DNA from: Bacteroidota bacterium
GTDB lineage: Bacteria > Bacteroidota > Ignavibacteria > Ignavibacteriales > Ignavibacteriaceae
NCBI GenBank assembly: GCA_021831685.1
Contig: JAKBMG010000137.1
Coordinates: forward strand, 1 to 40,390
Length of the DNA: 40,390 nt
Direction: 5' to 3'
The notes under the pieces are model-generated. The model had not been told where the DNA came from, made no database searches, and saw nothing but the letters and a program-made list of their open reading frames with translations. This document shows, one piece after another, positions 6,717 through 40,265 of the stretch. How positions within the stretch are numbered: the first letter of the stretch is position 1; every line of letters starts with the position of its first letter. Made by a program: the position numbers and the translations under genes.

Positions 6717-6884
6717 TGTTATAAATTTCCTCTGGTTATCAATATGAATTTATACAAATTAACAAGGTAATTTATAAAATAAAACTGAAAAGCGGTATGA
6801 TTTTAAGAAAGATTTAATATCCGATCAAATGCTTAATTTGTTAAAGATTCAAAGAATGAACTCGCTCACTTTAGAGTGTACTTA

Positions 6885-7298
6885 TTAATAAAATTTTATT
6901 TCTATTTTAGTCCTTGATACTATTTCATCATAAAATATTTTTGCATCAGACTTCCTGATCAATCTTTTATCAAGTTGTATTTCTTTATAATCGGAAAATA
7001 ATGTTATCCAGTATCTTTCAGCATTGATTTTCTTAATAGCATCTATTTTCATCCTTTTATAAATACCGCCGGGACCTACAAAAATCTTAATTTCATTATT
7101 ATCAATAAATATGTAATAACCGAAAAAAAATCTGCAACAATTCATTAGAGCAAATAGAAATACAATTAAAGAGAAAATTAAATAGAAATATCTGCCTCCC
7201 TCTATTTGTCGAAAATGTGCTGAAGTTATATATGCTATAGCAATAATAGGTATTAAAGTCCAACTGAAAAACTGTTTCCATGAATACCTGATTTTCAT
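6885..7298 (-). CDS. Small membrane protein with bacterial PH-like domain
   Basis: 137 residues. Two membrane segments are visible (about 10-26 and 37-62), followed by a soluble tail with alternating strands: FIDNNEIKIFVGPGG, KRMKIDAIKKINAE, FSDYKEIQLDKRLI. This matches the layout of small bacterial PH-domain membrane proteins, though I recognise no specific family. AAGG lies seven bases before the ATG. It begins 54 bp after the stop of the lanthipeptide-like precursor in the same orientation, so the two could be cotranscribed. A role in membrane association or self-protection is only a hypothesis from that position. Confidence 0.75.
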   Translation of the reverse strand: MKIRYSWKQFFSWTLIPIIAIAYITSAHFRQIEGGRYFYLIFSLIVFLFALMNCCRFFFGYYIFIDNNEIKIFVGPGGIYKRMKIDAIKKINAERYWITLFSDYKEIQLDKRLIRKSDAKIFYDEIVSRTKIEIKFY

Positions 7299-7352
7299 AT
7301 AAATACCTTTTGTTTTTTTTAATAAGATAAGAACTTTTAGTTAAATTAATCA

Positions 7353-7475
7353 TCAAAGTGTAATGCACCAGGACGTAATTGCCCATGAACCTGTACCTTT
7401 ATTCCATGCACTATCCTCTGTTGTTTCGAACGATTCGACCTTTAAATTATCTATATCTAATTTTAGCTTTTTCAT
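7353..7475 (-). CDS. Lanthipeptide-like (RiPP) precursor peptide, 40 aa
   Basis: A short gene below usual ORF cut-offs. The N-terminal half is MKKLKLDIDNLKVESFETT, which matches the leader consensus (KLKLD.D.L.VESFET) of the pinensin-like class I lanthipeptide precursors of Bacteroidota and related phyla. The C-terminal part from residue 20 contains GTGSWAITSWCITL: one Cys and several Ser/Thr, enough for one lanthionine ring, and three Trp. The ribosome binding site is strong (AAAGGAAG about seven bases before ATG). No dehydratase, cyclase or peptidase-containing exporter is in the window, so the peptide is an orphan here. The leader match is from memory of the family. A chance ORF is unlikely given leader, RBS and length together. 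Confidence 0.65.
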   Translation of the reverse strand: MKKLKLDIDNLKVESFETTEDSAWNKGTGSWAITSWCITL

Positions 7476-7563
7476 AAAAGCTTCCTTTCTTTCCACTTTT
7501 ATGAGTTTTATTCTATTGTCATTCTTAACTTAATTATGGTCTATCCCCTTAAAAGTATACACA

Positions 7564-7584
7564 AAATCAAGAGACTCTTGATTT
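7564..7584. repeat. Perfect 21-bp palindrome upstream of the precursor peptide
   Basis: Two 10-bp arms, AAATCAAGAG and CTCTTGATTT, flank a single central A. The palindrome lies about 90 bp before the start of the minus-strand precursor gene, in its probable promoter region. The perfect dyad suggests a binding site for a dimeric regulator. No T-run supports a terminator. Confidence 0.5.
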
Positions 7585-7664
7585 AATCTCTTTCTGTTTT
7601 TCTTTGTTATGTTAAACCAGAATATCTCTGTTACTTTAAGCATTACTAATATGAATTTATCTAT

Positions 7665-7763
7665 GAGTCCGCCCTACAAAGGTATTTTTACTGAAAAAAA
7701 GTTTTGATTTCTGTGCATAATCAAAGCCCAAAAATTGAATTTCGGGCTTTCTAGAGCGGACTC
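7665..7763. mobile_element. MITE-like element, 99 bp, with 6-bp target duplication
   Basis: The ends form imperfect terminal inverted repeats: GAGTCCGCCCTACAAAG at 7665-7681 and the reverse complement of 7747-7763, GAGTCCGCTCTAGAAAG (15 of 17 match). Immediately outside is ATCTAT at 7659-7664 and again at 7764-7769, a likely target-site duplication. Inside lies a hairpin with AAAGCCC at 7723-7729 and GGGCTTT at 7744-7750. There is no room for a transposase, so it would be moved in trans. It sits just past the stop of the erythromycin-esterase-family gene and about 190 bp upstream of the precursor peptide, and may act as an insulator between them. Confidence 0.8.
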
Positions 7764-7789
7764 ATCTATATTGTCAAAATAATTGCCTC

Positions 7790-9607
7790 TCAATTATTGT
7801 TATAATGAGTATATGATTTTAGTAACAGATGCGATGGAGTAGTTTTGTCAAAAAATATTAAAACATCAAAGTCATCAGTAATAATTGTTGGGAAAAACCC
7901 ATTGTCCATTGCGTGAGCTCCAATTTCACGAAAGTAAAGTGTTTGTTCCAGCCATTTAGAATCAGGGCTATCAGAAACTTTTCTCAAATCCAGTATCATT
8001 CTTTTCATTCCAGTTTTATGTAAAGCCCATTCTACACTGCCGGGCTCTGAATTTGAAGTTGTATAAACGCCGAGCCCTGTATCACCATATGCAGTGTATT
8101 TACCCGAGTGAAAAGCAAAACCAAGATTTATAAATTCATTACCATATTTATGATTTAAATAATTGCCCATGCAATAATTTGCTTTACTAATGTGCCCATT
8201 ATGCGCCCATAGAACGATTTTTGCATTTTTAGCTGAATGATCTATAATCCATTCGACGTTTAATGCCATATCTTCATCACGTGATTTTTTGCCGGGTATA
8301 TTAATTTCTGCACCTTGACTTACTATTCTAGCATTTTGAATTATCCAGTCAACATCTGTGGAATCATCTTGTTCCAAATATTTACTACGATTTATTTTCA
8401 AATGGCTTAGAACTGTTATAGCTGCTCGATACCAATTACTCGCCTCAGATATCTTTTCTTGTTCATTCATTCTGTATAATTTAGGAAATATATCTGGTAT
8501 AACGTTGTAATAAATATTCAAAGAATCATAGTAATTAACATCATACTTCTTAATAAAATCCTTTATATTCTGAATGGCTATAGTCGGGTATTGACAATCA
8601 AATCCCCAAAATTTAATTTTTTCTTTTTTTGAAATATTATATCTTCTCATCCATTTTATCATATCAAGCACTTCCTGCGTATTCCATGTCCAAAAATACA
8701 TGCCGGATAGTGCGGCTTTAGGATCGCCCACACCAGTTGTTATATAATCGTTAACACGCTTTGCTTCTGGCATATTAGCCTCTATCGCAAATACTACATT
8801 CTTATATTCATCAGCGGTATATCTTACAATTTGATCTTTCATTTTAAAGAATTCGCTTGTTCCATGTGTACCTTCACCAAGCGCTATAATTCTTGAATTT
8901 CCAATTATTTGTTTTAGTTTTTCAAGGTTTTTTCCCTCATTTTCCGTTAGAACTGTATCGAATGTAATCGCATTCTTTTTAATCCAGGATAATTGCTTAT
9001 TAGAGGGAACAAATGTTTTTGGAGCCACTTGCTTATATTCTTTACCATCAATTTCAATATTTAAGTCATCAAACCAGGCTGTTCCATCCCCCGATGATAA
9101 AACTCCAAAAACTATATCCTTTGCATCTTTGCTAACATCAAGATCAATTTTATATCTTCTCCATGGAGTTGTGCCTGATGGACCACGGTCACTCATATTA
9201 TCGAGATATAAAACATTACCATTCTTGCCATCTACCCGCCACCAAAGACCTGCATATCCATTTACAATATTTTGAGTTTTAATATACCCAGTATAAGATA
9301 CATGTTTTCCTTTTGCAGCTTCAATAGGAAAAGAAGTAGTAGCAACTCCAAAGCTTCCTGCAGATATTTTGGATATTCTCAAACTTTTTTTACCCGAATA
9401 AAATTCCGAACTATCAACAGCAACTTTAAATCCTTGTCCACCTGCAAACCAACCCCAGGGATACCCGTTTGAAAGAGAGAGTTCAAAATTTAGATTTAAA
9501 AATTTTGTTTGGCTATTAGAATTATCTTTATCTGTATTGTTAAAGACCTTACATCCTAAAAATGCAGAAATAAAAATCAATAAAAGCACACATTTAATTT
9601 TATTCAT
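7790..9607 (-). CDS. Erythromycin esterase family lipoprotein with N-terminal jelly-roll domain
   Basis: 605 residues. A lipoprotein signal ends at Cys19 (AFLGC), so the protein is membrane-anchored outside the cytoplasm. Residues about 35-190 look like a carbohydrate-binding-type jelly roll (GYPWGWFAGGQGF, SGKKSLRIS, TAWFDDLNIEIDG). Residues about 205-595 are the EreA/EreB-type hydrolase: GEGTHGT at 244-250 supplies the Glu and His of the known active site, and AHNGH at 468-472 the later His pair. The position of the EreB active-site Arg (nine residues after the first His) is Lys257 here. Intracellular macrolide esterases lack the anchor and extra domain, so macrolide resistance is unlikely; the substrate is unknown. 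GGAGG precedes the ATG. Confidence 0.88.
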   Translation of the reverse strand: MNKIKCVLLLIFISAFLGCKVFNNTDKDNSNSQTKFLNLNFELSLSNGYPWGWFAGGQGFKVAVDSSEFYSGKKSLRISKISAGSFGVATTSFPIEAAKGKHVSYTGYIKTQNIVNGYAGLWWRVDGKNGNVLYLDNMSDRGPSGTTPWRRYKIDLDVSKDAKDIVFGVLSSGDGTAWFDDLNIEIDGKEYKQVAPKTFVPSNKQLSWIKKNAITFDTVLTENEGKNLEKLKQIIGNSRIIALGEGTHGTSEFFKMKDQIVRYTADEYKNVVFAIEANMPEAKRVNDYITTGVGDPKAALSGMYFWTWNTQEVLDMIKWMRRYNISKKEKIKFWGFDCQYPTIAIQNIKDFIKKYDVNYYDSLNIYYNVIPDIFPKLYRMNEQEKISEASNWYRAAITVLSHLKINRSKYLEQDDSTDVDWIIQNARIVSQGAEINIPGKKSRDEDMALNVEWIIDHSAKNAKIVLWAHNGHISKANYCMGNYLNHKYGNEFINLGFAFHSGKYTAYGDTGLGVYTTSNSEPGSVEWALHKTGMKRMILDLRKVSDSPDSKWLEQTLYFREIGAHAMDNGFFPTIITDDFDVLIFFDKTTPSHLLLKSYTHYNNN

Positions 9608-10006
9608 AATAATACCTCCATCTGTGATAGTTTAAATTATTAAGATGCAAAATATTTTTTGTATAATTCTTATAACCGGCAGAGAATCTATTCTGGAAGT
9701 AATATATGCGAAATGAAGCAAAATGTTTATCATAATATGACAATCCGGAATTGGTTAGAAATGTGTGGGAGGGATATTTGAAACAGCTAAAAATATCTCT
9801 TTATTCAAAAAGGAAAATATGGATGCAGATAAAATGGAAATAATAATATTTTTATTCTTAACAACCAATGAACCCCCATATAATGGTAACTATTAAAAGT
9901 AACTTTTATTAAGATAAATAAAATAAAAAAGATAATCAACAATAGAAATTATTTCGGTATGCCCTGCAAAACTTTTTAATTTTAATTAACAAAGAACAAA
10001 TTCAAT
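9608..10006. other. Intergenic region between the esterase-family gene and the ABC permease
   Basis: No convincing gene. It holds the 5' region of the esterase-family lipoprotein gene and the 3' region of the efflux operon. A 15-bp palindrome (TAAAAGT, A, ACTTTTA at 9894-9908) is the only clear structure. It is near the end of the region distant from the lipoprotein start, and no T-run follows it. Confidence 0.6.
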
Positions 10007-11176
10007 TTAACTTGCTCTTAAAGCAGTAACAATATTCATTCTAGCAGCTCTTACCGAAGGCAGGAATCCTCCGACAAACCCCATAATTATTGCAAATACT
10101 AACGATGAGACTACTATCGACGGAGATAATGCAAAAGAGAAAGCCAGTTCAGAAAATGAGCTGAAGTTTAATGTTGAGATCGAAAAAAATTGGAGGAATG
10201 ACGCCAAGAATATTCCTATTGCTCCGCCAGCTAATGTTATGAGGAGCGATTCGAGTAAAAAAGCTGAAAGAATACTCCTACGATTGAACCCCAAAGACCT
10301 AAGCGTTCCAATTTCCACGGTACGGTTAGCCACGGCAGAATACATTGTTATAGTCGCTCCGATAGTAGCACCAAGGCTAAAAATAATGGTGATAAAAATT
10401 CCTAACACTCGAATAAACGTTGACAACATTTCGGATTGCTGTGCAAAATACTTTTGTTCAATTATAGGTTCGTACTGTTGAAGACGTAAATCCGAATTAA
10501 ATGCTTTCTTAAAAGCATCATAATTTTCCGGGTTATCTAATTTAAGCGTTACCGTAGAAACTGTGCTACCGCGGTTAAATGCGCTTAGAAGCTGGAGTGC
10601 ATCGCCCCAAATTTCAGAATCAAAACCGCTTCCGTTTGTTGTAAATATTCCGACTATTTTCCAATTACCTCCAGCAAACTTTATATAGCTTCCTAAGTGT
10701 GCACCCGGAAATCTCTTTGCGATTGCGTCCCCGACGATTAATTCCCGGAGTCCCCAGGTAAACATTCTTCCTTTGATAATTTTTACCTGCGGTCTCAATT
10801 GATCTATCTCAGGTGAAACTCCTCTTACCGTAATATTGCTTACTCCTCCGCCTTGTTTTTCAAGGTTAACTATTACAACAGGCTCGTCTGATATGACTAA
10901 ATTACCGTCCGGTTCCTTTGCGATATGCGGTAGAGTTCGAATTACATTTTGAATGTCCGGACCAATAATGCTGGAAATTTCAGAATTTGCAGCTTTTCTT
11001 GTTATCATTACATTATCTCCAGAGCCAGTTGAAACTAAAGTCTTTTGAATTCCGAATGCCATCATTAATACAGCCGTAAAGACAAAAACAACTAGCGCAA
11101 TACCGGCTATTGTAATAAAAGTTGTTAACTTCCTTGCCATGAAATTGCGCAAAATATATTTCAGCGGTATTTTCAT
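10007..11176 (-). CDS. ABC transporter permease, MacB/FtsX type
   Basis: 389 residues. One membrane segment near residues 15-45 (FITIAGIALVVFVFTAVLMM) is followed by a large periplasmic MacB-type core domain (about 50-250). Three C-terminal segments form the FtsX domain, with GTLRSLGFNRRSILSAFLLESLL linking them. It works as a mechanotransmission-type permease with the ATPase upstream rather than as a channel through the bilayer. It is the last gene of the four-gene minus-strand operon, 71 bp after the second permease, with AAGGAT before its ATG. The two permeases are related but diverged and may form a heterodimer. Confidence 0.93.
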   Translation of the reverse strand: MKIPLKYILRNFMARKLTTFITIAGIALVVFVFTAVLMMAFGIQKTLVSTGSGDNVMITRKAANSEISSIIGPDIQNVIRTLPHIAKEPDGNLVISDEPVVIVNLEKQGGGVSNITVRGVSPEIDQLRPQVKIIKGRMFTWGLRELIVGDAIAKRFPGAHLGSYIKFAGGNWKIVGIFTTNGSGFDSEIWGDALQLLSAFNRGSTVSTVTLKLDNPENYDAFKKAFNSDLRLQQYEPIIEQKYFAQQSEMLSTFIRVLGIFITIIFSLGATIGATITMYSAVANRTVEIGTLRSLGFNRRSILSAFLLESLLITLAGGAIGIFLASFLQFFSISTLNFSSFSELAFSFALSPSIVVSSLVFAIIMGFVGGFLPSVRAARMNIVTALRAS

Positions 11177-11247
11177 ATTAAAATCCTTAGAAAGAATATT
11201 GTTTGAAAATTTTTATCATCATTATCAATACATACTTCAAAATCTTT

Positions 11248-12408
11248 TTATCCTGAGAATCTGATTCCATCTACTATCCTAGTTGTCAAAGCTCTTTGAA
11301 TAGGAAACAGCGCGGCTACAATTCCAATAAGAATAGCTGAGCCGCAAGAGAAAATTATTGTAATTGGTTCAATTTCAAATACCGGAAATATCCCTTTAGG
11401 TATGAATTGGCTAAAACCGCTCACTATGGGAAAGGTCAACAGAAGGCCAATGCCTCCGCCAAGAAATGAAATTAAAAGAGACTCACCAAGAATTATTCCG
11501 GCTAAATGTTTCCCACTAAAACCCAATGTTTTAAGTACGGCATATTCACGAGTCCTTTCGCGGGCAGACATTATCATGGTGTTCCCAAGCACTAACATTA
11601 TTATTCCGATTATTACAAAAGAAATAAAATTCATAGATGTAATAATTGCGCTTGAGGATTGTATGAATCCTTGTTGAAACGCAGCTTCGGTTTCAGTTTT
11701 TGTTTCTGCAGTAGAATTATTGAAAATGCCATCTATCTGATTTGATATGCTTGCAGATTGTGCCGGATCATTTATTAAAACAACAAACCAACCAACATCC
11801 CCTGCCCTACCAGGCATTTCCTGTTTCATTGTTTCATCAAGATAACTCCAATGAAAAAGCATTTGCATCGCATCGGTAGACTTAAATTTTGGTTGATAAA
11901 TTCCGCGTACTACAAATTCCCATCTGCCCGGATAAATATCACCGTCGAGTGTTATTACATCGCCAAGTTTTAGATGATATTTTTTTGCTATATCCGCACC
12001 GATAACACAAGAATTTCTTTCTTTCTTAAAAGTATCAAGTTGATCTTTTGGAAGAACAAATTCATTATAAACTTCAAAATAAGTATCGGCATCGACGGCG
12101 AGCCGTGCAAAGAAATTATTTTTATCAATGTAAGTCCCGCCAAACCAATTTGCAAAAGTGACTTCTTTAACACCCGGTACTTGAGCTATCTTTTCACGGT
12201 ATGAGTATGGAAGCGGAAAAATAAATGAAACTGATTGTCGAACTATCAAACGATTAGCAGATGCTGCTTTAACACTTGAATACCATGCGGTTACAACCGT
12301 TCGTAACAATCCGAATGCAATTACGGCAATCGCTATTCCGAAGATTGTTAAGGCGGTTCTCAGCTTATGCCGCAAGGAATTTTTAAATATTAATTTCAAG
12401 ATTTTCAT
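11248..12408 (-). CDS. ABC transporter permease, MacB/FtsX type
   Basis: 386 residues with the same layout as its downstream neighbour: an N-terminal membrane segment (RTALTIFGIAIAVIAFGLL), a periplasmic core of about 200 residues, and three C-terminal membrane segments with the FtsX-type loop EYAVLKTLGFSGKHLAGI. The ATG overlaps the ATPase stop by four bases (ATGA), with AGGAG inside the ATPase end acting as ribosome binding site. The two are therefore translationally coupled. It likely pairs with the neighbouring permease and ATPase to extrude a substrate from the periplasm. Confidence 0.94.
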   Translation of the reverse strand: MKILKLIFKNSLRHKLRTALTIFGIAIAVIAFGLLRTVVTAWYSSVKAASANRLIVRQSVSFIFPLPYSYREKIAQVPGVKEVTFANWFGGTYIDKNNFFARLAVDADTYFEVYNEFVLPKDQLDTFKKERNSCVIGADIAKKYHLKLGDVITLDGDIYPGRWEFVVRGIYQPKFKSTDAMQMLFHWSYLDETMKQEMPGRAGDVGWFVVLINDPAQSASISNQIDGIFNNSTAETKTETEAAFQQGFIQSSSAIITSMNFISFVIIGIIMLVLGNTMIMSARERTREYAVLKTLGFSGKHLAGIILGESLLISFLGGGIGLLLTFPIVSGFSQFIPKGIFPVFEIEPITIIFSCGSAILIGIVAALFPIQRALTTRIVDGIRFSG

Positions 12409-13088
12409 ACAGTCTCCTGAATTAAATCTCCTTTTTCAAGATGACGAATCACATGTGCTTTTGAAGCAGCGTGAGGATCGTGAGTTACCATAAGGATAGT
12501 TTTATTAAACTCTTGGTTTAAGCGTTCCATTAAAATTAAAATTTCCCCAGCAGAGTTTCTATCAAGATCGCCTGTGGGTTCATCTGCTACAAGAATTACC
12601 GGATCGGTAACAATAGCTCTTGCTATAGCAACGCGTTGTTCCTGTCCTCCTGAAAGTTGTTTTGGATAATGATCCATCCTATCATTTAGTCCCACAATAT
12701 TAAGGGCCGTTTCGACGTGTTGTTTTCTTTCGGCTTTGGAAAGTTTTGTTAAAAGAATGGGTAGTTCAACATTTTCAAAGGCAGTGAGTACCGGAATCAA
12801 ATTATAAAACTGAAACACAAATCCTATATTATTAGAGCGCCATTTTGCAAGAGACGATTCGTTTAGCCTGGATATATCCGTTCCGTTAATAATAATTTCT
12901 CCTCTTGTAGGCTTATCAATCCCGGAAATTAAATTCAGCAAGGTTGTTTTACCGGAGCCAGATGGTCCCATCAGAGCCATGAATTCCCCTTCCTTAATAT
13001 CCAAAGAGATATCATGAAGCACTGAAGTTTCAATACTGTCCCGCCAGTACGATTTAGAAACATTTTTCACTTGAATTATGTCTGCCAT
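12405..13088 (-). CDS. ABC transporter ATP-binding protein (MacB/LolD type)
   Basis: 227 residues, a single nucleotide-binding domain. The Walker A loop is GPSGSGKTT at 41-49, the signature LSGGQ at 145-149 and Walker B VILVADEP with Glu170. The short length and ETSVLHDISLDIKEGEF opening are typical of the LolD/MacB/FtsE group that works with FtsX-type permeases. It lies 55 bp after the adaptor gene and overlaps the first permease gene by 4 bp, and GTGGAG precedes its ATG. The operon order adaptor, ATPase, permease, permease is the common Bacteroidota form of a MacAB-like exporter. Confidence 0.96.
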   Translation of the reverse strand: MADIIQVKNVSKSYWRDSIETSVLHDISLDIKEGEFMALMGPSGSGKTTLLNLISGIDKPTRGEIIINGTDISRLNESSLAKWRSNNIGFVFQFYNLIPVLTAFENVELPILLTKLSKAERKQHVETALNIVGLNDRMDHYPKQLSGGQEQRVAIARAIVTDPVILVADEPTGDLDRNSAGEILILMERLNQEFNKTILMVTHDPHAASKAHVIRHLEKGDLIQETV

Positions 13089-13143
13089 TTTAACTCCACT
13101 ATATTCTTAAAAAATTTATATCCAATCTCTCCGGACTACTTCC

Positions 13144-14337
13144 TCACTCTTTAACATTAACCCTTATCCCATTTTTAATTTTATCAGTTACCGTTTCGAT
13201 TACTTTGTCTCCTTGTTCCAATCCGGATCTAATTTCTAAAAAATCTCCTAATTGTCTTCCAGTGGTCACAGTTGTTTGGATCGTCTTGTCATTTTTAACC
13301 ATAAAAACAACCTGCTTTCCGTTTCGATTTACGACTGCGGTTTGAGGAATTGTTAAAACCGGTTTATGATTCGCACTATTTTGTTTATTCGATTTTGTTA
13401 AGAACATTACTTTTGCGCTCATTTCCGGGAGGACACGGCTGTCATATTTCTTAAAGGCAACTTTTACCATAACGGTCGCTTTTGTTCGATCAGCTGTAGG
13501 AACAATCTTTGACACGTAACCGGGATAATCGTAATCAGGATAAGCATCAAGTACAATCTCACAATTTTGATTCGGAGAAATTTTTTCGATGTTTGATTCT
13601 GAAACATCGGCTTCAACTTGAAGCGACCTCATATCGGCAATAGTAACTACCGCCCCTTTTGAATTTATGCTTGCTCCGAACGGGGCGACTATTTCGCCTA
13701 CATCGGCATCCTTTGTAAGTACAGTTCCATCAAACGGCGCGCGGATAATAGTATATTCCACAGCTACCCTTGCAGCATTCACATTTGCTTTGGAGACGTC
13801 TATCGAAGCAAGAATTTGCTTATAATTTGCTTCCGATGCATCAAGATCCGCTTGCGATGCAGAACCGGATTTAAATAATGCTTTTTCGCGTTTGTATGTA
13901 TCTTCCGCATTCTTTAAGCCGGATTTACTTAATTCTAAATTCGCTTCTGCTGCTTCAAGCTGTGCTTTAACATCACTATCTTCAAGTCTTGCAATTATTT
14001 CTCCTTTTTTTACCTTATCTCCTTCAACAACGCCGAGGTAAACTAATCTGCCGGTTCCTTTTGAAGCTACTGCTGCTTTTCTCTGAGCAACCACATAACC
14101 GCTTGCAATTAATTCCGTAATTGATAATGAAGGCGATTGGAGCACAGCTTCGGTAAGCTTTACTTCTACACGCGACTTTAATAATGGACTTAAAATTAAG
14201 TACCCTGCAATAATTAGAATTGCGATTAGAGAAATAATCGCGACCAGTTTAAACAATTTGTTATTAGCGCCGTAAGGTGTTTGTTTTTCGGTACGATTGA
14301 TTTTTAACGAAGATAGATCTGAGTTTTTTGTTTCCAT
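13144..14337 (-). CDS. MacA/HlyD-type periplasmic adaptor (membrane fusion protein)
   Basis: 397 residues. A membrane anchor sits at about residues 28-49. A biotinyl-lipoyl-like half-domain follows (SKGTGRLVYLGVVEGDKVKKG), then a coiled-coil hairpin of about 85 residues (AQLEAAEANLELSKSGLKN), the second lipoyl half (TIIRAPFDGTVLTKDADVG) and a beta-barrel/membrane-proximal region (SLQVEADVSESNIEKI). It would connect the inner-membrane permeases to an outer-membrane channel such as TolC, which is not encoded here. It is the first gene of the operon. No clear Shine-Dalgarno sequence precedes its ATG. Confidence 0.94.
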   Translation of the reverse strand: METKNSDLSSLKINRTEKQTPYGANNKLFKLVAIISLIAILIIAGYLILSPLLKSRVEVKLTEAVLQSPSLSITELIASGYVVAQRKAAVASKGTGRLVYLGVVEGDKVKKGEIIARLEDSDVKAQLEAAEANLELSKSGLKNAEDTYKREKALFKSGSASQADLDASEANYKQILASIDVSKANVNAARVAVEYTIIRAPFDGTVLTKDADVGEIVAPFGASINSKGAVVTIADMRSLQVEADVSESNIEKISPNQNCEIVLDAYPDYDYPGYVSKIVPTADRTKATVMVKVAFKKYDSRVLPEMSAKVMFLTKSNKQNSANHKPVLTIPQTAVVNRNGKQVVFMVKNDKTIQTTVTTGRQLGDFLEIRSGLEQGDKVIETVTDKIKNGIRVNVKE

Positions 14338-31189: not shown

Positions 31190-32029
31190 TTAAGAAAGAA
31201 TATCTTTTTTTTGAAAAATCAAAGCCGCTGATCCAAAGAATAAAAATATATGCCCTAAAAGAATTAAAGAATCTTTAATAATTTCTTTTATATCGATTGG
31301 GTCGTCAAAAAATAACCGCCAGCCATTCATGTAATTTGTAAAAAGGTATGGTTTAATAGCTCTAAATATTTCAATATTAATTCCGGAAATAATTATGAAG
31401 ATAATAATTATCGCCATCGTTGAGATAATGGGTCCGATTGCATTTTCAACCAATGAAGAAAATAGAAACGCTAGAGAGGCAACAACACCCATACCTAATG
31501 AAGAAAAACAATAAGCCAATAAAAATCGCCATAAAACATCGTTCTTCGAAAACACAATTATTGTTCCATTCTGAACAACAAGCAAATCGCCAGAGCCAAA
31601 AATACTTAGTCCTAAACCAAGACTAAAAATCGCAAGGAAAAATATTATCATACATGTATAAATGATTCCGGCAAGGAATTTAGACGTAACGATATTAATT
31701 CTTGAAACGGGTCGAGTAATCAACATCCTGTAAGTTCCTGACGTTGCCTCGCCAGCTAAAAGATCACCGGCGACGAGTGTAATTAAGAACGGGATATGAA
31801 TTACCAGGGTGTTAAGGATTAAATGCGAAACTAAATAACCATTCAATAAATTCCCCACGAGGATAAAGGATTGCTGAAGATTGTGAGTCATAAAATTAAT
31901 TGACCGCTGCCCTTCCACGAGCATAGCGACTTGGATTACGGATACGAGAACCGCAATAGCTATAAAACCAATATAGGTTCTCCATTTTCTAAAAATTTTA
32001 TAAAGCTCAATATTTATTAATCCAATCAT
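31190..32029 (-). CDS. ABC-2 type transporter permease
   Basis: 279 residues with six predicted membrane segments, opening NIELYKIFRKWRTYIGFIAI. The segment AGEATSGTYRMLITRPVSR is the conserved ABC-2 loop next to the second helix. The ATG overlaps the ATPase stop by four bases (ATGA), so the two genes are coupled. Substrate is not evident; such two-gene systems export drugs, peptides or lipids. Confidence 0.93.
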   Translation of the reverse strand: MIGLINIELYKIFRKWRTYIGFIAIAVLVSVIQVAMLVEGQRSINFMTHNLQQSFILVGNLLNGYLVSHLILNTLVIHIPFLITLVAGDLLAGEATSGTYRMLITRPVSRINIVTSKFLAGIIYTCMIIFFLAIFSLGLGLSIFGSGDLLVVQNGTIIVFSKNDVLWRFLLAYCFSSLGMGVVASLAFLFSSLVENAIGPIISTMAIIIIFIIISGINIEIFRAIKPYLFTNYMNGWRLFFDDPIDIKEIIKDSLILLGHIFLFFGSAALIFQKKDILS

Positions 32030-32964
32030 TTGGAAACCGTCTCTGTAATACTTAAAAAATATTCTTCTAGCGAACGTGTAGGAATTACCGCACTTACTAA
32101 AATATTATTTTCTACAAAAAGCTTATTCAGGAAAGAAATTTCGCCCGGCTCTAATAGAAAAATCAACTTATTTCCCACAATAGAATCGAGCATTTTCATC
32201 CAGGAAGTATCATTAATTAATAGCTTTGCTTTTTCAATTTCATCAACTTCAAAAGTTACTTTTAGTTTATTCGAATTCAGCAAGTCAGAAACATTGCCTT
32301 CAACTTTTGCATAACCTTTGTCGATAATAACCATCCGGTTTGCAACAAGCTCCACTTCATAGAGAATATGAGAAGATAGAAATATTGTTTTCTTTTTTTC
32401 TTTGCTTAGATAAATAATCAAGTCTCTAATTTCCTTCATGCCTTGGGGATCCAAGCCAGTTGTAGGTTCATCAAGGATTATCAAATCGGGTTCGTGTAAT
32501 AAAGCCTGTGCTAAGCCAAGACGCTGTTTCATCCCGTGTGAAAAAGTTTTGACTTTACTTTTATATCTTTTGTGAAGCCCAACCAATTCCAGCATTTCCA
32601 TAATTCTTTTTTTAGAAATATTGCTGCCCGAAATTTTCCCGAGTATTTCCATGTTTTTATAAGCGGTCATATAGCCATAAAAATCGGGCTTCTCAACTAT
32701 AGCACCGATTTTTTTAAGTATTTCAATTCTATTTTCTTTTAAAGATTTTCCAAATAATTTTATGTTTCCACCGGAAGGTTTAATAAGCGATAAAAGCATT
32801 CTGATTGTTGTGCTTTTTCCAGCACCGTTTGGGCCTAAAAAGCCAAACACATCTCCCTTATAAACATTCAAACTTAGGTTATCAACCGCTCTAATTTCTT
32901 TAAACTGTTTAGAAAGATTTTGAACCTCTATTATTTTTTCGTCAGACAAAACTTCTTCTTTCAT
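32026..32964 (-). CDS. ABC-2 transporter ATP-binding protein
   Basis: 312 residues. The Walker A loop is GPNGAGKST at 44-52, the signature is FSHGMKQRLGLAQAL and Walker B LIILDEPTTGL; the extra domain after about residue 225 is typical of DrrA/CcmA-like ATPases. It is the first gene of a three-gene operon with the permease and the LolA-like protein. No clear ribosome binding site precedes the ATG. Confidence 0.96.
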   Translation of the reverse strand: MKEEVLSDEKIIEVQNLSKQFKEIRAVDNLSLNVYKGDVFGFLGPNGAGKSTTIRMLLSLIKPSGGNIKLFGKSLKENRIEILKKIGAIVEKPDFYGYMTAYKNMEILGKISGSNISKKRIMEMLELVGLHKRYKSKVKTFSHGMKQRLGLAQALLHEPDLIILDEPTTGLDPQGMKEIRDLIIYLSKEKKKTIFLSSHILYEVELVANRMVIIDKGYAKVEGNVSDLLNSNKLKVTFEVDEIEKAKLLINDTSWMKMLDSIVGNKLIFLLEPGEISFLNKLFVENNILVSAVIPTRSLEEYFLSITETVSK

Positions 32965-37226: not shown

Positions 37227-38468
37227 TTAAAGATTTAATTTTCTTAATTTAGGTGCAAATGTTTGCATAACTGCGACAACAATAAGGGTCATACTACCGC
37301 CAAAAATAACCGACGGAACCAAGCCCAATAATTTAGCCGCAAGACCGGATTCAAAAGAGCCAAGTTCATTTGAAGAGCCTACAAAGATGCCGTTAACGGC
37401 AGAAACACGTCCGCGCATTTCATCCGGTGTGAAAAGCTGGATAATTGTAGCCCGAATTATTACGCTAACATTATCAAACAATCCGCTTAAGAATAAAACG
37501 AACAAAGAGAAATAGAAACTTTTAGACAATGCAAACAAAATCATCGAAATACCGAACGCAAAGACACAAATTAATAGATTGCGTCCGGCATTTTTGAAGA
37601 ATGGATTATGAGCTTGTATAACAGACATAATTATTTCTCCCAAGGCAGGAGCAGCTCTCAGAAAGCCTAATCCTTTAGCACCGATATGAAGAACCTGGTC
37701 GGCAAAAATAGGAAGAACGGAAACAGCACCACCAAAAAAAACCGCGAACATATCAAGAGTAATTGCGCTTAAAATAATCTGTTCCTTAAAAACAAATTTC
37801 AGACCTGCAGAAAGACTTTGCCTGATAGTTTCTTCTGAGGTTCGAGCCGGTAATTGTTTGTTTTGTACTTTGGCAAACAATAAAAAACCAGCTGCGCTCA
37901 TTATGATAACGACTAAATATGCATTTCCTATACCGGAAAAGCCATAAATTAATCCTCCTGTGGCAGGCCCTGTTACGTCGGCAAGTTGCCAAGCTAGGCT
38001 GTTCCAGGTGGAGGCATTTCCAAATAATTCGCGCGGTATAAGCTGAGCAACAAATGCGCCTTGAGCAGGAGACATAAATCCGCGAGCCACTCCAGTAACA
38101 ATAATTATTAGATAAATTGGAAATACACCGTGTTCAACAAGAATAATATGGAACCTTGTAGAAATCAGAAAAAGTGCAGAAGCAGACAAAAGATAAACGA
38201 TATTAGAAATAAGTATAATTTTTTTTCTGGTTACTACATCTGCGACGTGACCGGCAAACAGAGAAATACTAAGAAACGGTAAAGCTTCGGAAAGTCCGAT
38301 TAAGCCTAAGGAAAGTGCATCATGTGTAATCTCATAAATTTGCCAGCCTACTATAACTGATTGCATTTGAATTGCAAAGGTTAGGAGAAAGCGAGCACTG
38401 ACAAACCACTTAAAGTCATTTATCTTTAAAGATGCATAAGCGTCATTGTTTTTTAGATCATAATCCAT
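37227..38468 (-). CDS. MFS transporter, EntS-like
   Basis: 413 residues with about 12 membrane segments. LLTFAIQMQSVIVGWQIYEI and ALSLGLIGLSEALPFLSISL start the first helices, and GHVADVVTRKKIIL is the loop 2-3 motif A. This pattern matches the MFS_3/EntS-like exporter group. The substrate is unknown; siderophore or drug export are possible. No clear ribosome binding site precedes the ATG at 38468. It ends convergently to nrdJ, about 150 bp beyond the nrdJ terminator. Confidence 0.93.
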   Translation of the reverse strand: MDYDLKNNDAYASLKINDFKWFVSARFLLTFAIQMQSVIVGWQIYEITHDALSLGLIGLSEALPFLSISLFAGHVADVVTRKKIILISNIVYLLSASALFLISTRFHIILVEHGVFPIYLIIIVTGVARGFMSPAQGAFVAQLIPRELFGNASTWNSLAWQLADVTGPATGGLIYGFSGIGNAYLVVIIMSAAGFLLFAKVQNKQLPARTSEETIRQSLSAGLKFVFKEQIILSAITLDMFAVFFGGAVSVLPIFADQVLHIGAKGLGFLRAAPALGEIIMSVIQAHNPFFKNAGRNLLICVFAFGISMILFALSKSFYFSLFVLFLSGLFDNVSVIIRATIIQLFTPDEMRGRVSAVNGIFVGSSNELGSFESGLAAKLLGLVPSVIFGGSMTLIVVAVMQTFAPKLRKLNL

Positions 38469-38666
38469 TTTAACATAATTCTTTTTGTCGATGTATTATT
38501 TATAAACCAAAATAGATTGCTAAAGTATATCATTCAGAAATCAAAAATAAGCTAAACACAATATAACTGCATAGAAAATACTTGATAGGAATAACCATTT
38601 TGACCATTGATTGTTGTGGAAATAGATATGCAAAAATTATTATTACTAAAAGAAATTTCGGGTATT

Positions 38667-39404
38667 CTAATTTTTCCCAGTAACATTGGCTGGGTTAAAA
38701 AGATTTTCAATTCTTCTGCCGCCCATAAATCTTTTTTCATAATAAGTATCATCAATTGAAGAGACAATTACGCCATTTCTAGAACTTGCGTGTGCAAATA
38801 GATGATCGCCAATATAAATCCCAACGTGCCCCGGTTTAATTCCCCTTCGCGTGTTAAAAAAAACTAAGTCACCAAATTTAAGGTCGTCAACATTATCGAC
38901 CGGATCGCCTTCTGTAAATTGCTCGTGAGCACTTCTTAACAAGTCGATAGAAAATGTTTTGGAATATATTTTTTGTGTAAATGCAGAACAGTCAATTCCA
39001 TTAGCAGTATTACCGCCATATTTATATGGGGTATCTAAATATTTTATTATCTCCATCAGCATCTTTTCTCTGCCAGTAACTTGATATGTAGTAAGTTTCT
39101 CATCTTTTGATTTAAGTTTTTTCATCAAAGAAGCTATGTCAATGCTTTTTTCATTAGGAGGAATGTCATCCGTATCAGATTCAACTACTTCACTGTCGTT
39201 TACGGTCGTATCAAAATTTTGTTCTTTATCTGAAAAATCATTTTTTTCTTTGTCTGAGCTAAATTTTACGGTGGAATTATTTTTGTCGGCTTTTTCTTTA
39301 GATGTGTTGTATCGCGTAGTGCTTGTAGTCGATGCACAACCGGAAATTAAAAGTACGCTGGTTATTCCAAAAAAACATAGAAAACTGTAACGGATTTTTC
39401 TCAT
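38667..39404 (-). CDS. NlpC/P60 (C40) peptidoglycan hydrolase lipoprotein
   Basis: 245 residues. A lipoprotein signal ends at Cys23 (LLISGC). A charged, Asp/Ser/Lys-rich linker to about residue 105 precedes the C-terminal NlpC/P60 domain: Cys139 in NGIDCSAF, His193 in GHVGIY and His205 in FAHAS. It should be a D-glutamyl-diamino acid endopeptidase of the cell wall. It begins six bases after the stop of the primary sigma factor gene on the same strand and so is probably cotranscribed with it. There is no strong ribosome binding site, and it may depend on coupling. Confidence 0.94.
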   Translation of the reverse strand: MRKIRYSFLCFFGITSVLLISGCASTTSTTRYNTSKEKADKNNSTVKFSSDKEKNDFSDKEQNFDTTVNDSEVVESDTDDIPPNEKSIDIASLMKKLKSKDEKLTTYQVTGREKMLMEIIKYLDTPYKYGGNTANGIDCSAFTQKIYSKTFSIDLLRSAHEQFTEGDPVDNVDDLKFGDLVFFNTRRGIKPGHVGIYIGDHLFAHASSRNGVIVSSIDDTYYEKRFMGGRRIENLFNPANVTGKN

Positions 39405-39410
39405 TTATTT

Positions 39411-40265
39411 TTAGCCAAGATATGATTTTAAATTTTTACTTCTTGAAACATGTCTAAGTCTACGGATTGCTTTTTCTTTTATTTGCCTAACTCTTTCGCG
39501 CGTCAGATTAAACCTTTCACCAATTTCCTCAAGGGTAAGAGAATGTTCCTTGTTTAACCCAAAATAAAGTCTAATAACTTCCGATTCTCTTTCGGATAAA
39601 GTTGAAAGAGCGCGATTTATTTCAGATTTGAGCGATTCGATCATCAGAGTATAATCGGGAGTAGGAAGTTCATCATTCTCAATTACATCCAAAAGACTAT
39701 TCTCTTCACCTTGGGTGAAAGGAGCATCCATAGAAACATGCCTGCTAGAAATCTTTAAGGTTTCAGCAACATCTAGAACATCCATTTCGAGTTCTGTCGC
39801 CAGTTCCACAGCGGTTGGTTCTCTTTCAAATTCTTGCTCAAGATTGCTATATGCTTTACCGATTTTATTCAGAGCACCGACTCTATTGAGCGGCAGTCTG
39901 ACAATTCTCGATTGTTCTGCAAGGGCTTGAAGAATTGACTGCCTAATCCACCATACAGCATAAGAAATGAACTTAAAGCCACGAGTTTCATCAAATCTTT
40001 TAGCCGCTTTAATCAGCCCCAGGTTTCCTTCATTTATTAAATCACCAAGGGATAAACCCTGATTTTGATACTGTTTTGATACGCTCACAACAAAACGCAA
40101 GTTTGCCTTTGTCAGCAATTCAAGAGCAAGTTGGTCACCCTTTTTTATTCTAATAGCCAACTCAATTTCTTGGTCTGGAGTAAGCAGATCAACTTTGCCA
40201 ATCTCCTGCAAATATTTATCAAGGGACTGGCTTTCACGATTGGTAAATTGTTTCGTTATTTTCAC
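39411..40265 (-). CDS. rpoD: Primary RNA polymerase sigma factor (sigma-70 family, RpoD/SigA)
   Basis: 284 residues, the short primary sigma typical of Bacteroidota and relatives: region 1.1 and the non-conserved insert are absent. Region 1.2 is [20 protein letters not shown], region 2 includes [20 protein letters not shown] and [16 protein letters not shown] (core binding and -10 recognition), region 3 follows, and region 4.2 is [20 protein letters not shown] for the -35. The start is GTG at 40265, with GAGG nearby upstream at good spacing (GAGGTAGATAAGTG); a start at an internal ATG would delete region 1.2. The downstream NlpC lipoprotein gene follows after six bases. Confidence 0.96.

Follow-up and report, generated by a model that had tools for sequence, protein, structure and literature searches.

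An orphan pinensin-type leader peptide gene beside an erythromycin-esterase-family gene in a genome of the Ignavibacteriaceae

The DNA analysed here (the window) is a whole contig of 40,390 bp from a genome of 221 contigs with a rated completeness of 99.83%, and the peptide gene under study lies inside it. The gene occupies positions 7353-7475 of the minus strand and consists of 40 codons plus a stop codon (7353-7355), exactly as the first-pass annotation had claimed. Its translation is MKKLKLDIDNLKVESFETTEDSAWNKGTGSWAITSWCITL. The ribosome binding site proposed at the same time was confirmed as AAGGAAG (7481-7487, minus strand), and the start region, AAGGAAGCTTTTATGAAAAAGCTAAAATTA, matched the precursor starts of two relatives at 29 of 30 bases. 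Profile alignment assigned residues 1-28 (7392-7475, minus strand) to the leader, up to and including a KGT junction that may mark the cleavage zone of a leader peptide. The presumed core, GSWAITSWCITL (residues 29-40; 7356-7391, minus strand), is placed by its position after KGT. It has about 12 residues with one Cys and with Ser/Thr ahead of that Cys, so both Ser/Thr and Cys are present. The core string first quoted was credited with three Trp residues, but it holds only two, as W24 precedes the KGT junction.

An adjoining gene that the first-pass annotation did not mention lies on the same strand, 314 bp upstream of the peptide gene. It encodes a 605-residue protein of the erythromycin-esterase (Ere) family (7790-9607, minus strand; PF05139) with an extra N-terminal domain and a signal-like N-terminus. 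A 99-bp element (7665-7763) stands between the two genes, which may therefore be separate transcripts. The element has inverted ends (ATGAGTCCGC at 7663-7672 and 7756-7765, on opposite strands) and is bordered by ATAGAT direct repeats (7659-7664 and 7764-7769). Its region folded better than 100 of 100 shuffles (z -4.06), and a 20-base piece of it, sought in 145 loci, occurred only in those of the window itself. It resembles a small mobile element. A palindrome, AAATCAAGA-GTC-TCTTGATTT (7564-7584), lies roughly 90 bp upstream of the start codon of the peptide and is a possible operator. A promoter scan gave 26 hits against 20.6 expected (sd 4.0), and a terminator scan gave 1 against 1.1 expected. 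Rfam returned one match over 6800-10100, which was taken as chance, since its 22.4 bits (E 0.82) fell far short of the gathering score, 60.

Downstream of the peptide gene, a 137-residue membrane-type protein is encoded at 6885-7298 (minus strand). Its match to EbsA was below threshold (18 bits against 25.9), and its gene had the lowest G+C content of the 27 genes compared (0.261). We can only guess that it could be an immunity protein linked to the peptide. The G+C content over the 6-10 kb region was also low, at 0.30-0.33, but other stretches of the window equalled it. Further upstream lies a putative exporter set, comprising an HlyD-type adaptor, an ATPase and two MacB/FtsX-type permeases (10007-14337, minus strand). 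The earlier statement that the window holds no peptidase-containing exporter thus needs rewording: an exporter-like set is there, and no peptidase domain is listed in it. Across 39 loci compared, five of the six neighbours tested, including the adaptor and the permeases, had no match, and the ATPase had general ABC matches only. Comparison with the same-genus genome G019 gave 77 stretches covering 1.45 Mb of about 3.5 Mb. Within these 1.45 Mb the surroundings of the Ere and peptide genes were not met, and only a few other window genes were.

The NF038180 model (leader_pinensin) scored 23 bits over residues 4-22 of the window ORF (E 5.5e-5), which is one bit short of its curated cut-off of 24. 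When the whole genome was searched at E <= 10, two matches were returned. The peptide was the better of them (22.5 bits, E 8.1e-4, against E 1.88 for the other). The suggested check against the pinensin model therefore stopped just below the cut-off but still singled out this peptide. We also built a leader profile that excluded the window and drew on seven leaders from its order: one from genome G451, two from G110 and four from G978. This profile matched the peptide ORF at 45.7 bits (E 2.3e-13), with the alignment running from the start Met to KGT. Among 1083 six-frame fragments of the window, the runner-up reached only E 0.31. Because the profile match is this strong and the start DNA is nearly identical, the peptide gene belongs to the leader family of its order. 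Its pinensin-like leader, proposed earlier, is thereby upheld, and on these sequence comparisons its descent from the class I (pinensin-type) lanthipeptide precursors of the order is well supported.

Relatives of the leader were found in few genomes. Four of 164 genomes of the order matched it at E <= 0.003, as did four of 395 genomes in a sample of the phylum at E <= 0.001. Within its own family, three of 80 genomes gave a match in an NF038180-type search (E <= 0.05), and an accepted leader occurred only in the window genome. The weak family matches L005 and L006, and L003 in the window genome itself, were judged by their sequences not to be leaders. The expectation of homologues in related genomes thus held at the level of the order but, with the sensitivity of this search, not among the other 79 genomes of the family. 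A separate alignment scan gave four loci, but its pattern lay over a stretch judged to be misaligned, so this count is no measure of how common the leader family is. A plasmid search found no match for the peptide, and a Chryseobacterium precursor gave a single weak match there (E 3).

The leaders of G451 and G978 lie in clusters that also hold both LanB domains (N and C), LanC and an ABC exporter; the region of the fourth G978 leader (L141) is a short contig without matches of the LanB, LanC or exporter type. The relatives' precursors in G451, G110 and G978 resemble the window peptide in the leader through KGT and in the start-site DNA. They differ in having long, Cys-rich cores where the window peptide has a single Cys in a core of about 12 residues, and in the window genome neither LanB nor LanC was found.

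That absence extends the orphan status noted for the window to the whole genome. No match was obtained there for the LanB domains PF04738 and PF14028, and G451 and G461 were positive for PF14028 in the same search. LanC (PF05147) gave one match of 16.6 bits, below the cut-off of 23.2. It was rejected, as from its sequence alone the protein was read as a thioredoxin-domain/DUF255-type protein. The proposals that split LanB/LanC elsewhere in the genome might be found, and that such enzymes serve the precursor, thus met with no LanB domain and no credible LanC. The enzyme searches of the genome covered LanB and LanC domains, and the Pfam scan of the window covered its ORFs apart from five at 31190-32029, 32026-32964 and 37227-40265. 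An assembly gap that hides LanB/LanC is possible. G110, which is 99% complete, has LanC with a leader on either side of it at a contig edge, but no PF14028 match; this can be attributed to a cluster cut by the contig end. As the searches for LanB and LanC found neither, we do not claim lanthipeptide membership for the peptide. A lanthipeptide reading is not supported, given that the genome has no LanB and no credible LanC and that the core is only about 12 residues long and has a single Cys. Precursors that lack neighbouring enzymes are not new in themselves; the available text of PMC11118758 describes predicted RiPP precursors of this kind.

The neighbouring Ere protein was clearly assigned to its family, with 217.5 bits against PF05139 (cut-off 26.4), and the genome has no other match to this model at E <= 1e-5. 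It falls far short of EreA, EreB and EreD, scoring 25.2, 69.3 and 52 bits against NCBIfam cut-offs of 750-800. The catalytic motifs GEGTHG, EANMPE, GFDCQ and WAHNGH are kept, and the catalytic domain is common to Bacillus proteins (2RAD/3B55, E 2.8e-38; 2QGM, E 3.3e-33) and to EreC (6XCQ, E 2.5e-5). The extra N-terminal domain sets it apart from these family members. As its N-terminus resembles a secretion signal, the protein is probably exported.

The sections available of PMC6254334 name both esters and proteins as substrates that Ere-family enzymes hydrolyse, and place these enzymes in the Tiki superfamily, which includes endopeptidases with the same His/Glu machinery. The accessible part of PMC8939145 describes graspetide loci with an Ere homologue, for which peptide modification or resistance is suggested and the role is called unclear. 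As presented there, these loci resemble the window in having a precursor peptide with an Ere homologue close by, but differ in their ATP-grasp enzyme and in their leader type. The Ere family is broad, and 169 plasmid records matched it. Two plasmid Ere regions were checked by annotation. One, on a Deinococcus plasmid, encodes an Ere protein with an N-terminal extension and lists no leader-type product; the other was unannotated. Among the plasmid matches H12-H36, several Ere matches from Rhizobium and Sinorhizobium fell under features named protein-L-isoaspartate O-methyltransferase.

Ere genes adjoin pinensin-type leaders in other genomes as well, namely in three genomes of the genus g79, which belongs to the same class (G353, G929 and G930). 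The only Ere gene of G353 lies 140 bp from a leader, and both Ere genes of G930 lie beside leaders, with gaps of 97 and 134 bp. In G929, two of four Ere genes lie near leaders, at 1196 and 1453 bp, and both belong to a cluster that has LanC and a LanB C-domain. The 616-residue Ere proteins of G929 and G930 have the N-terminal domain in common with the window protein (E 2.1e-16 and 4.9e-14). These loci are like the window in placing a pinensin-type leader and an Ere-family gene side by side; they are unlike it in their longer, Cys-containing cores, in the LanC/LanB domains of G929 and G930, and in gene order. Among the eight genomes that hold both a leader and an Ere gene, 6 of 12 Ere genes lay within 1.5 kb of a leader, against about 0.04 expected under random placement. 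This expectation was calculated post hoc, with genome sizes and leader numbers rounded and with sister species counted as independent. G929 and G930 share orthologous pairs of Ere genes, and the six adjacency cases therefore represent about three lineages.

The exceptions are clear. Ere genes lie away from leaders in G931, G461, G816 and G472, as do two of those in G929; two of these six non-adjacent genes (on C40 of G929 and C50 of G461) are near contig ends, with one side mostly unread. The nearest relative of the window Ere that was seen, in G056 (48% by BLAST), had no leader in the 16 kb read. A tree of 13 Ere proteins had several long branches, with four of ten inner branches starred. It joined the window and G056 proteins with a support of 91/93, not starred, and did not gather the leader-associated Ere proteins and the window Ere into one clade. 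In the class of the Chryseobacterium genome, none of 20 leader regions from seven genomes contained an Ere gene, but 17 of these regions came from genomes without any Ere (G508, G490, G805 and G618), so only three regions test the pairing. In the literature we found nothing that joins pinensin with erythromycin esterase. No report of an Ere gene beside pinensin-type leaders was found in the text available from PMC8939145, PMC7268733, PMC9248904, PMC6254334, PMC11118758 and PMC9716278; the esterase mentioned in the accessible portion of PMC9716278 is in a genomic island and is unrelated to a precursor. The recurrent partnership with Ere, with its exceptions, is the new element here.

Taken together, these results suggest that a leader-bearing peptide gene has become decoupled and forms a pair with an exported Ere hydrolase, a reading that we hold with about even confidence. 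The gene would descend from the class I lanthipeptide precursors of the order and would have been uncoupled from LanB/LanC, with its leader still intact and some 12 residues of core. The peptide would be expressed and exported, with the leader removed near KGT. If the Ere protein is exported, it would act after export of the peptide, and the hydrolase may act on the peptide product as a processing enzyme or for self-protection. The leader profile, the start region alike at 29 of 30 bases, the relatives in LanB/LanC clusters, and the lone PF05139 gene of the genome at 314 bp all support this reading. So do the 6 of 12 Ere genes close to leaders elsewhere, the two Ere genes within the LanC/LanB cluster of G929, the conserved catalytic motifs and the Ere homologue of graspetide loci. 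Counted against the pairing are the G056 region without a leader, the absence of a single clade, the small number of lineages (about three) and the six non-adjacent Ere genes, together with the very short core, the other 79 family genomes without a leader relative, and the 99-bp element between the genes. A stronger proposal is that Ere hydrolases are dedicated partners of pinensin-type leaders, and that the window holds a minimal pair without LanB/LanC in which Ere processes or modifies the exported peptide. We consider it distinctly improbable.

The main rival to the decoupled leader and Ere pair is a remnant of a lanthipeptide locus from which LanB, LanC and most of the core have gone, with a leader that decay has not yet reached and an Ere gene whose presence has an unrelated cause. 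Such a remnant would account for the 12 or so core residues where relatives have long Cys-rich cores, for the missing enzymes, for the isolated occurrence within the 80-genome family and for the G056 Ere gene without a leader. But the start codon, the ribosome site and the full leader through KGT are all intact, and adjacency to Ere recurs in other genomes, so we rate this explanation as somewhat unlikely. We find it less likely still that the gene is an ordinary or other-class RiPP precursor served in trans, whether by LanB/LanC in an assembly gap or by a YcaO, radical SAM or ATP-grasp enzyme elsewhere. The leader homology agrees with such a precursor, as do the confinement of the genome searches to LanB/LanC domains and the example of G110, which at 99% completeness can have LanC and leaders without a PF14028 match. 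Against it stand a 99.83%-complete genome with neither LanB domain nor a credible LanC, and a window contig that is whole, with the gene within it. A chance ORF that merely resembles a leader would suit the short length and the one bit missing from the NF038180 score, but it is very hard to reconcile with an E value of 2.3e-13 against leaders of its own order and with start-site DNA nearly identical to that of relatives; we regard it as highly improbable.

If Ere proteins were regular partners of such leaders, part of the genes commonly annotated as macrolide esterases would serve in the maturation of peptides or in self-protection, and pairs of leader and Ere would offer a search handle for loci overlooked by enzyme-centred mining. 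The orphan gene also makes it testable whether such leaders still function after loss of the lanthionine enzymes.

Two g79 genomes provided further observations. G353 is 99% complete and is a second candidate orphan-leader genome. The genome-wide search there, for PF14028 alone, gave no match; at least five pinensin-type leaders were seen on four of its contigs (L035-L038). In G929, the two loci L116 and L117 on contig C44 form a cluster with ten leader-type precursors by motif. This cluster also contains LanC, a LanB C-domain, two Ere genes, two S41 peptidases and an Rce1-like protease.
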